Source: Candidatus Jettenia sp.
GTDB taxonomy: Bacteria > Planctomycetota > Brocadiia > Brocadiales > Brocadiaceae
Reading direction: 5' to 3'
DNA: 64,000 nt
Assembly (NCBI GenBank): GCA_021650895.1
Contig: CP091278.1
Coordinates: 2,509,659-2,573,658 of the forward strand
The translations under genes and the position numbers were made by a program. Below are positions 1-2,283 of this stretch, piece after piece. Numbering within the stretch: position 1 is the stretch's first letter; every line of letters starts with the position of its first letter. The notes beneath the pieces are model-generated. The model had not been told where the DNA came from. It saw only the letters and a list, made by a program, of their open reading frames with translations, and ran no database searches.

Positions 1-838
1 AGATGAATCGCTAGAGATAATTCATAACGTCGATAAAGTTGCATTAATAGAGGCTTCCATTGCTTCAAAAAATAATGTATTACCAGCAAACGTAGTTCCT
101 AATATTATTATTGATCATCATCAAACAGACTTTAGCCTTGTAAAAGGTGAGTTTGTTGAAATATTGCCGAAGATTGGTGCTGCTTCTACTATTATGACAA
201 GGTACCTACGGCAATTAGACATTGTGCCGGACCCGCCACTTGCCACAGCTCTTCGCTATGGAATCAGGGTTGATACAAGCGGGTTCACCAGGAATACTAC
301 TACAGAAGACCTTGATGCTGCAGCCTACCTCTCATCGCTAGTTGATGTAGGATTGTTAAATCAAATAGAGAACCCTCCTATGAGCGCAGAAACGCTCGAT
401 ATTATTGGAAGAGCTATAAGAAACCGAGAGGTGAGGGGATCGTATCTTATATCTTTTGTAGAGTTTATAACTGACCGTGATGCATTACCACAGGCGGCAG
501 AATTAATGTTACAGATGGAAGGAGTATCTACGGTACTTGTATTCGGAATTGATAAAGACAAGGTGCAATTGTCAGCTCGAAGTATGGACTCAAGAATCAA
601 TCTGGCATCACTATTGCAAAAAGCATTTGGGTTTATGAATGCGGGCGGACATGCAACGATGGCAGCCGGTACTATAGATCTAGGTATTTTTGGAGATGTG
701 AATGATAAAAAATCGCTATCAAGGATTACTTTTGATGCTGTACGAAAAAAGTTTTTTTCTGCAGCAGGAATAGATACAGAAAAAAAAGAAATACCCGATG
801 AATTAGAACTAATGATTAACAACGGTGTTAGGAATTAA
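1..838 (+). CDS. DHH/DHHA1 phosphoesterase (NrnA-like), 5' truncated by window edge
   Basis: The reading frame is open from base 2 without a start, so the gene begins before the window. The visible part contains a DHH motif (IIIDHHQ, encoded near base 110-120) and a C-terminal DHHA1 signature (GGHATMAAG, near 646-670). Both are hallmarks of the DHH phosphoesterase family that includes nanoRNase/pAp-phosphatase NrnA and RecJ. Family members hydrolyse short oligoribonucleotides or 3'-phosphoadenosine 5'-phosphate using Mn ions in the cytoplasm. The short spacing of DHH to DHHA1 fits NrnA better than RecJ, but the missing N-terminus prevents a firm choice. A lipoprotein gene follows after about 45 bases. 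Confidence 0.85.
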   Translation, partial: DESLEIIHNVDKVALIEASIASKNNVLPANVVPNIIIDHHQTDFSLVKGEFVEILPKIGAASTIMTRYLRQLDIVPDPPLATALRYGIRVDTSGFTRNTTTEDLDAAAYLSSLVDVGLLNQIENPPMSAETLDIIGRAIRNREVRGSYLISFVEFITDRDALPQAAELMLQMEGVSTVLVFGIDKDKVQLSARSMDSRINLASLLQKAFGFMNAGGHATMAAGTIDLGIFGDVNDKKSLSRITFDAVRKKFFSAAGIDTEKKEIPDELELMINNGVRN

Positions 839-883
839 TTGTATTGGCTATCTTTATAGGTGATGGAAAATAGGAGAAATATT

Positions 884-2182
884 ATGGGAAAAGGATTTTT
901 AGGTGTAGTATTAGTAAGTCTTGCAATCTTTTTGAACTCTTGTGTTACTACCCAAAGGCAAGTAAAGGAGGCAGAAGAGCACGAGTTAAGGCAGAAAGAG
1001 ACATCTGCACCTGTAGAACCTGTACCTGCACAGCCAGAAGCTGTTGCCCCCGTTGAACCCGCTCCAGAAGCTGTTATTCCTTCACTGCCAGAAGAAGAGG
1101 TTGGGGAAGAAACACCTGCCGAAGAGGAAGACCTTGAAGAAGCGCCAATAACAGAACCTGCACAGCCAGAAGCTGCTGCCCCCGTTGAACCCGCTCCAGA
1201 AGCTGTTATTCCTTCACTGCCAGAAGAAGAGGTTGGGGAAGAAACACCTGCCGAAGAGGAAGACCTTGAAGAAGCGCCAATAACAGAACCTGCACAGCCA
1301 GAAGCTGCTGCCCCCGTTGAACCCGCTCCAGAAGCTGTTATTCCTTCACTGCCAGAAGAAGAGGTTGGGGAAGAAACACCTGCCGAAGAGGAAGACCTTG
1401 AAGAAGCACCAATAACAGAACCTGCACAGCCAGAAGCTGCTGCCCCCGTTGAACCCGCTCCAGAAGCTGTTATTCCTTCACTGCCAGAAGAAGAGGTTGG
1501 GGAAGAAACACCTGCCGAAGAGGAAGACCTTGAAGAAGCACCAATAACAGAACCTGCACAGCCAGAAGCTGCTGCCCCCGTTGAACCCGCTCCAGAAGCT
1601 GTTATTCCTTCACTGCCAGAAGAAGAGGTTGGGGAAGAAACACCTGCCGAAGAGGAAGACCTTGAAGAAGCACCAATAACAGAACCTGCACAGCCAGAAG
1701 CTGCTGCCCCCGTTGAACCCGCTCCTGAGGCTGCCACTTCTACAGAACAAACGGAATCTATGGGAAAGTCTATAAATCAGTGTACCACCTGTAATAAAGC
1801 AGCTGGAGAAGGACATGTCTGCGGCCTTACTACATATTGCCAACAATGCTCAGAAGAAGTTGGACCTGGCCATATCTGCGATTTAACCTTCTTTTGCTCT
1901 GATTGTAAAAAAGAAGTTGGAGACGGTCATATTTGTAATGTGACAACATTCTGCACAAAATGTGAAGAAGAAGTTGGATCTGGCCACATCTGCGATATAA
2001 CATACTTTTGTTATGATTGTGAGAAAGAAGTTGGAGATGAACATATCTGTGGTGTTACCCATTTTTGTTCTACATGCAACAAAGAAGCCGGAGAAAGACA
2101 TGAATGCGGCAAGACTTATTTCTGCTTTAATTGTGAAAAAGAGGTCCCCGCCGAACATCAGCACGAAAGCCTAGCAAAGTAA
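884..2182 (+). CDS. Lipoprotein with 44-residue P/E-rich tandem repeats and cysteine/histidine repeat tail
   Basis: ATG 884 is chosen because AGGAG lies 7 bases upstream; a GTG further upstream has no such site. The protein starts with a hydrophobic signal and a lipobox-like LNSC with Cys at residue 20, so it is probably a lipid-anchored envelope protein. Next come five near-identical 44-residue repeats rich in Glu, Pro and Ala, likely an extended acidic stalk. The last ~130 residues contain seven ~20-residue units with CxxC, then Gly, then HxC (for example FCSDCKKEVGDGHIC). Each unit offers three Cys and one His, as in a metal-binding finger. It is not a haem c motif because CxxC is not followed by His. 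Function unknown; metal binding is inference. Confidence 0.8.
   Translation: MGKGFLGVVLVSLAIFLNSCVTTQRQVKEAEEHELRQKETSAPVEPVPAQPEAVAPVEPAPEAVIPSLPEEEVGEETPAEEEDLEEAPITEPAQPEAAAPVEPAPEAVIPSLPEEEVGEETPAEEEDLEEAPITEPAQPEAAAPVEPAPEAVIPSLPEEEVGEETPAEEEDLEEAPITEPAQPEAAAPVEPAPEAVIPSLPEEEVGEETPAEEEDLEEAPITEPAQPEAAAPVEPAPEAVIPSLPEEEVGEETPAEEEDLEEAPITEPAQPEAAAPVEPAPEAATSTEQTESMGKSINQCTTCNKAAGEGHVCGLTTYCQQCSEEVGPGHICDLTFFCSDCKKEVGDGHICNVTTFCTKCEEEVGSGHICDITYFCYDCEKEVGDEHICGVTHFCSTCNKEAGERHECGKTYFCFNCEKEVPAEHQHESLAK
1067..1726 (+). repeat. Five tandem 132-bp coding repeats
   Basis: Five head-to-tail units of 132 bp encode the same 44 residues. Copies are almost identical at DNA level: the visible difference is a synonymous GCG/GCA switch in the EEAP segment, GCG in copies 1-2 and GCA in copies 3-5. 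The sixth, partial unit diverges after PEA. Such identity implies recent expansion or homogenisation, and copy number is likely to vary between strains. Confidence 0.95.
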
Positions 2183-2208
2183 TCTTGTAAAGAAATTACA
2201 TTCAATAG

Positions 2209-2242
2209 AAAAAGGCATGTTTACTGGTAAACATGCCTTTTT
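2209..2242. terminator. Bidirectional intrinsic terminator
   Basis: A perfect 16-bp stem with a 2-base loop: AAAAAGGCATGTTTAC, TG, GTAAACATGCCTTTTT. The A-run on one side and T-run on the other let it serve both the plus-strand lipoprotein gene and the convergent minus-strand gene ending at 2284. Confidence 0.85.
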
Positions 2243-2283
2243 CATTTTTAGTTTATTTTAAGAATCTTTTTGATCAATTTTTT

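Follow-up and report, generated by a model that had tools for sequence, protein, structure and literature searches.

The open reading frame at positions 884-2182 (+) of the window (the whole 64,000-nucleotide stretch that was analysed, positions 2,509,659-2,573,658 of a 3.82-Mb single-contig Candidatus Jettenia genome) very probably encodes a metal-finger lipoprotein, in which seven tandem CCHC/CCHH units follow a lipobox and a long acidic stalk. It is translated without a break into 432 aa. The array is conserved unit by unit throughout Brocadiaceae, and its distant planctomycete homologues exchange Cys and His at the putative ligand positions.

Gene and protein anatomy

The gene is preceded by a Shine–Dalgarno sequence, and an AGGAG-type motif occupies the equivalent site in most homologues. 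The encoded N-terminus carries a short basic n-region, then a hydrophobic run and the lipobox L17-N-S-C20; by pattern, this is the signal peptide with lipobox cysteine of a bacterial lipoprotein, and it bears out the lipobox-like LNSC reported in a preliminary description of this DNA. A lipobox of the same form, L[SNCATV]SC, was found by pattern in all Brocadiaceae homologues with the N-terminus present. The predicted lipid-bearing C20 and the finger cysteines account for all 21 Cys of the protein. A terminator-like hairpin closes the transcription unit, as judged by a consensus scan whose site count for the region did not exceed that of the shuffles. The features of the locus are:

1..838, +, 3′ part of a TrkA_N-DHH-DHHA1 gene (490 aa; start outside the window), from Pfam TrkA_N, DHHA1 and a sub-threshold DHH
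872..876, +, Shine–Dalgarno AGGAG, 7 nt 5′ of the ATG at 884, from the sequence
884..943, +, lipoprotein signal peptide and putative lipidation Cys20 (LNSC), from the translation, lipobox judged by pattern
944..1780, +, acidic Pro/Glu/Ala stalk, residues 21-299, by composition; net charge −81, no Cys
1024..1733, +, tandem 132-bp (44-aa) repeats inside the stalk, from Tandem Repeats Finder; 5.4 copies, 99% match
1781..1822, +, finger 1, CTTCNKAAGEGHVC
1838..1879, +, finger 2, CQQCSEEVGPGHIC
1895..1936, +, finger 3, CSDCKKEVGDGHIC, highly conserved
1952..1993, +, finger 4, CTKCEEEVGSGHIC
2009..2050, +, finger 5, CYDCEKEVGDEHIC, the most conserved finger, with a mean interspecies identity of 97%
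2066..2107, +, finger 6, CSTCNKEAGERHEC
2123..2164, +, finger 7, CFNCEKEVPAEHQH, terminal CCHH unit; all complete Brocadiaceae arrays end in HXH
2208..2243, +, intrinsic terminator-like hairpin, 16-bp stem and T-rich tail, from the consensus scan

The preliminary description had listed seven CxxC/Gly/HxC units of about 20 residues. The number holds, but the period is exactly 19 (starts at residues 300, 319, 338, 357, 376, 395 and 414; span 300-427), and whereas units 1-6 read C-x2-C-x7-H-x-C, unit 7 reads C-x2-C-x7-H-x-H and is without the Gly. Seven motif matches were counted in the real array; 100,000 shuffles of the array gave at most two and never two in the 19-residue register, which excludes chance as the origin of the pattern.

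Distribution and conservation in Brocadiaceae

The survey of homologues in Brocadiales, proposed earlier as a check, found the finger array in 31 of 33 Brocadiaceae genomes (the window's own included) at 69-98% identity, and in none of the sister families f2, f4 and f5 of the order, also by profile search. The count comes from a family search, repeated by profile across the whole order; many of the genomes are MAGs, and completeness is 83% and 58% for the two Brocadiaceae genomes without the array. Most genomes of f2, f4 and f5 carry the hydrazine synthase alpha domain (HZS_alpha), and the array, found within the order in Brocadiaceae (f1) only, is therefore a core gene of the family that is not required for anammox; it is not shared by all hydrazine-synthase-bearing families, as anammox core machinery would be. 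Two copies of the hydrazine synthase alpha domain were also noted in the genome, at G000:C1:582143 and 1877131, one open frame being of only 549 aa versus 826.

The ligands, the spacing of 14 and the linker of 5 residues had no exception among 33 distinct Brocadiaceae arrays, a set in which loci from the contig scan and from the genome set share species. The unit count was seven, with eight in Kuenenia and one other genus; a fusion and a fragment at a contig end had six. The array is under purifying selection, with a pairwise dN/dS of about 0.02-0.10. Between species, a unit was 77-97% identical to its counterpart at the same position and 34-77% identical to units elsewhere in the array, and fingers 3 and 5 were the most conserved. 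The array is acidic in every family member, with a net charge of −11 to −20. In Candidatus Jettenia ecosi it is 97-98% identical to that of the window, and the neighbouring proteins are at least 96% identical.

Distant homologues and the putative metal site

A phylum-wide profile search of 392 genomes recovered nine further genomes from six other planctomycete families, and a second profile, made from the distant double units, recovered the identical genome set. The profile searches covered Planctomycetota; the contig scan, which reaches close relatives only, gave anammox and planctomycete records and nothing else. By eye, nearly all the distant array proteins, one of them truncated at a contig end and others with uncertain starts, have a lipobox-like motif near the N-terminus. 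Their arrays mostly retain the 14+5 period; they open with CxxC, and nearly all close with HxH. The fourth ligand was Cys in 26 and His in 21 of the distant motif-defined units. When distant frames were anchored only on [TS]x[FYWLP]C (n=57), with no constraint on ligands 2-4, ligand 2 was Cys in 53 and His in three, ligand 3 was His in 43, and ligand 4 was His in 24 and Cys in 18. The second Cys is replaced by His in three units of one distant subgroup, and in one unit of each of two distant members the His is separated by 8 residues, rather than 1, from the last Cys, which is still present.

The ligand swaps, the 8-residue spacing with its retained Cys, and the CxxC start and HxH end of the arrays point to one four-ligand metal site inside each unit. 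Four invariant ligands at fixed spacing in the family and Cys/His interchange in the homologues are the marks of tandem CCHC/CCHH fingers, and the residue pattern argues for a tetrahedral site, most likely for Zn, within each unit. Zinc is the ordinary metal for four-ligand Cys/His sites of this type. An inter-unit site, built from the HxC of one unit and the CxxC of the next, was rejected, since it would orphan the first CxxC and the last HxH and, in the distant members, would place the two halves of a site on either side of a long gap. Haem attachment of the c-type cytochrome kind was also discarded, in line with the preliminary description: there is no CxxCH, none of the seven CxxC preceding a His. 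The central idea of that description, an envelope-anchored metal-binding array on a stalk, gains support from the family-wide lipobox and from the Cys/His swaps in the distant homologues. Kuenenia encodes signal peptidase II and the thiol-handling proteins DsbD and ResA, making lipidation and reduced thiols outside the cytoplasm plausible (PMC2881027).

Predicted fold and comparison with known families

AlphaFold2 with the family alignment modelled each unit of the array as one short beta-hairpin around the CxxC turn, after which comes the HxC loop (mean pLDDT 91.4; pTM 0.70, moderate), the five models ranging from 61.8 to 91.4. The same hairpins appeared when three fingers were modelled as a fragment, but at a pLDDT of only 63, too poor for a fold search; given this value and the spread of the models, the overall shape of the array is put forward as a hypothesis. 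Foldseek against the PDB gave a best E of 0.2 and none ≤0.001. Among viral models, the only match below 0.001 was the poly(ADP-ribose) polymerase of Bodo saltans virus (TM 0.23), and RING/CHY zinc-finger proteins recurred below significance. The PDB sequence and profile search gave nothing significant: the full-array profile reached a single PDB sequence, at the best E of 0.055 and with CxxC aligned, namely the anti-sigma-G factor Gin (PDB 5n7y), a soluble regulator without the HxC tandem. NCBIfam profiles gave no match and PHROGs only weak ones. Plasmid-borne spread was considered and set aside, a plasmid search being without match.

The commonest curated profile for the array was Zn_ribbon_6 (PF07191), a double zinc ribbon that hit 32 of 33 members at E≤0.1. 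The window's array scored 19.3-19.5 bits, below the 25-bit cut-off; eight of ten scanned members, those at E≤0.001, scored 21.0-25.8 bits (the other two are not listed), and three of the ten individually scanned lay slightly above the cut-off. The likeness lies in the CxxC knuckles. However, the array score is a sum of weak stretches, none of which passes alone in the ten members, and the array is a 19-residue CX2CX7HXC tandem in a lipoprotein. The earlier statement that no standard zinc ribbon fits was thus nearly right, this profile being borderline at about 19-26 bits. Zinc knuckles, UBZ, KIN17 and TRAF-type fingers each hold one CCHC/CCHH site on a small hairpin. UBZ and KIN17 gave sub-threshold profile scores only and the TRAF-type finger a non-significant Foldseek match, and all these finger types differ from the array in spacing and tandem architecture. 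The N-terminal CHY domain of the eukaryotic E3 ligase Pirh2/RCHY1 shares with the array its successive zinc sites, which form a peptide-binding surface in Pirh2 (PMC10148881), but there was no significant sequence or structural match, and it is a ubiquitin ligase domain rather than a lipoprotein. Published work joining anammox, lipoprotein and zinc finger or zinc-binding was not found, and other combinations gave nothing directly relevant; we could find no described family or publication covering the protein. The preliminary description knew of no named family and held that a clear match to a characterised one, or cysteines forming structural disulfides only, would overturn its reading. Pfam, NCBIfam, PHROGs and the PDB returned nothing clear, nor did Foldseek of the AlphaFold model, and the ligand swaps and the Cys/His pattern argue strongly against cysteines that form disulfides only.

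Genomic neighbourhood and a fused copy

All Brocadiaceae loci with enough contig sequence on that side, except the fusion described below, have a TrkA_N (RCK)-DHH-DHHA1 gene directly upstream and in the same orientation. The two genes, usually 32-69 bp apart and 45 bp apart in the window, are probably co-transcribed, and the upstream gene is a probable operon partner. Its 490-aa product (window 1-838 and L101:9025-10497) has only weak similarity to Mn-dependent pyrophosphatase models. A Pab1020-type RNA ligase with a Lig_C domain is encoded further upstream in most Brocadiaceae loci (L101:7510-8649 (−)). Among the loci checked, the window's downstream genes are conserved only in Jettenia and Loosdrechtia, one of them (2284-2820 (−)) encoding a 178-aa predicted secreted protein with no Pfam match. 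Three distant members have a phosphogluco/phosphomannomutase gene upstream and two a convergent pilus-type ATPase gene; with neighbours differing in this way, context does not reveal function.

One MAG (G007:C51, L053/L098:1536-3290) encodes a 584-aa protein in which fingers 2-7 follow a TM segment, HEAT repeats and a Big_5 Ig domain; by eye, its gene is preceded by vWA-like and DnaJ-like genes. No other copy seen, the two in the same genome among them, exceeds 85% identity to its finger DNA, which therefore was not copied from those, and mis-assembly as the source of the fusion is unlikely.

Proposed function and alternatives

We propose that the protein is a lipid-tethered zinc-finger rod that works as an adaptor, and give this full mechanism an even chance. 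The exported lipoprotein would be anchored by its lipidated Cys20 in a membrane facing the extracytoplasmic space, either of the cell envelope or of the anammoxosome, and its long acidic Pro/Glu/Ala tether, probably disordered, would bear a C-terminal rod of seven tandem CCHC zinc fingers (eight in Kuenenia and one other genus). Each 14-residue unit would hold one metal ion, most likely Zn(II), by its own CxxC and HxC/HxH, the fixed 5-residue linker would stack the beta-hairpins into a rigid repeat, and the role of zinc would be structural. On fingers 2-5, the nearly invariant faces may then make up a binding surface by which another envelope component is recruited or held. Pirh2, whose multi-zinc N-terminal domain serves to recognise peptides, illustrates, by analogy rather than by kinship, that successive zinc sites can form a recognition surface (PMC10148881). 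The array on a second membrane carrier, the TM-HEAT-Big_5 protein, counts for an extracytoplasmic adaptor. Against the adaptor rod count the moderate pTM, the wide spread of the models and the poor three-finger fragment, the gene context, which showed no partner gene and whose conserved member encodes a predicted cytoplasmic enzyme, and the acidity of the array, which makes looser cation binding possible. It also counts against it that zinc fingers are unusual on the extracytoplasmic side.

An envelope store or scavenger of zinc or another metal, buffering for the haem- and metal-rich anammox cell, seems rather unlikely. Such a role would suit a Cys/His-rich, lipid-anchored protein with an acidic tether and seven or eight sites per molecule, and capture of Zn, Cu or Fe had been suggested in the preliminary description. 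However, closed four-ligand CCHC sites are normally structural, the neighbouring genes read include no metal transporter, chaperone or haem gene, and the array is absent from sister anammox families with hydrazine synthase. The adaptor rod is favoured over storage because the units are conserved position by position and their number is nearly fixed; a store would tolerate degenerate units in variable number, and the array rather resembles those presenting a binding surface. Surface adhesion or tethering to the wall or S-layer, a narrower form of the adaptor with a polysaccharide or a surface-layer component as the partner of the array, could draw on the long tether, the mutase and pilus-type ATPase genes adjoining distant members and the fusion with the Ig-like Big_5 domain, but such neighbours were not seen in Brocadiaceae and no carbohydrate-binding signature was found, and we hold this version to be improbable.

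A misread N-terminus would turn the product into a cytoplasmic zinc-finger protein binding nucleic acid or protein, in line with the usual location of zinc fingers, the DHH phosphoesterase-like operon partner and the nearby Pab1020-type RNA ligase; this is very unlikely given that the lipobox signal peptide is kept family-wide, that lipobox-like motifs recur in distant homologues with other gene contexts and that the array is acidic in every family member. Slighter still is the chance of a thiol-redox or disulfide-stabilised repeat whose cysteines cycle or cross-link. Extracytoplasmic CxxC motifs do resemble thioredoxin-type pairs, and a redox role had been suggested earlier, but a thiol-disulfide oxidoreductase would have paired Cys without a conserved His ligand, whereas each unit in the family has three Cys and an invariant His, and there is no other Cys for such a role. 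Homologues with His in place of Cys at ligand 4 or 2, and the HxH terminal unit of all complete family arrays, also oppose it, and a disulfide array is further disfavoured by the odd number of Cys.

More broadly, it is possible, if doubtful, that these proteins represent a planctomycete-specific class (the profile searches being within Planctomycetota) of extracytoplasmic zinc-finger rods, which would be lipid-tethered, serve in recognition and be used by Brocadiaceae to organise the envelope or anammoxosome. Outside the cytoplasm, tandem structural zinc fingers are uncommon, and if this were true, lipid-tethered rods would do there what cytosolic finger arrays do inside. The architecture of anammox cells is still poorly understood, and a strongly constrained, family-wide lipoprotein is a specific candidate organiser of their envelope or organelle. 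The 19-residue CX2CX7HX[CH] tandem behind a lipobox provides a sequence definition for an uncharacterised family across Planctomycetota.

The acidic stalk

The stalks of homologues, as cut for this comparison, measure 92-275 aa and are always free of Cys, and their sequence is not conserved. In the window, the five 44-residue P/E/A repeats noticed in the preliminary description were recovered as 5.4 copies of a 132-bp period, with 0-1 of 132 bases differing between the full copies that were compared. The repeat varies in number and sequence among Jettenia species and is a fast-evolving minisatellite within the coding stalk.
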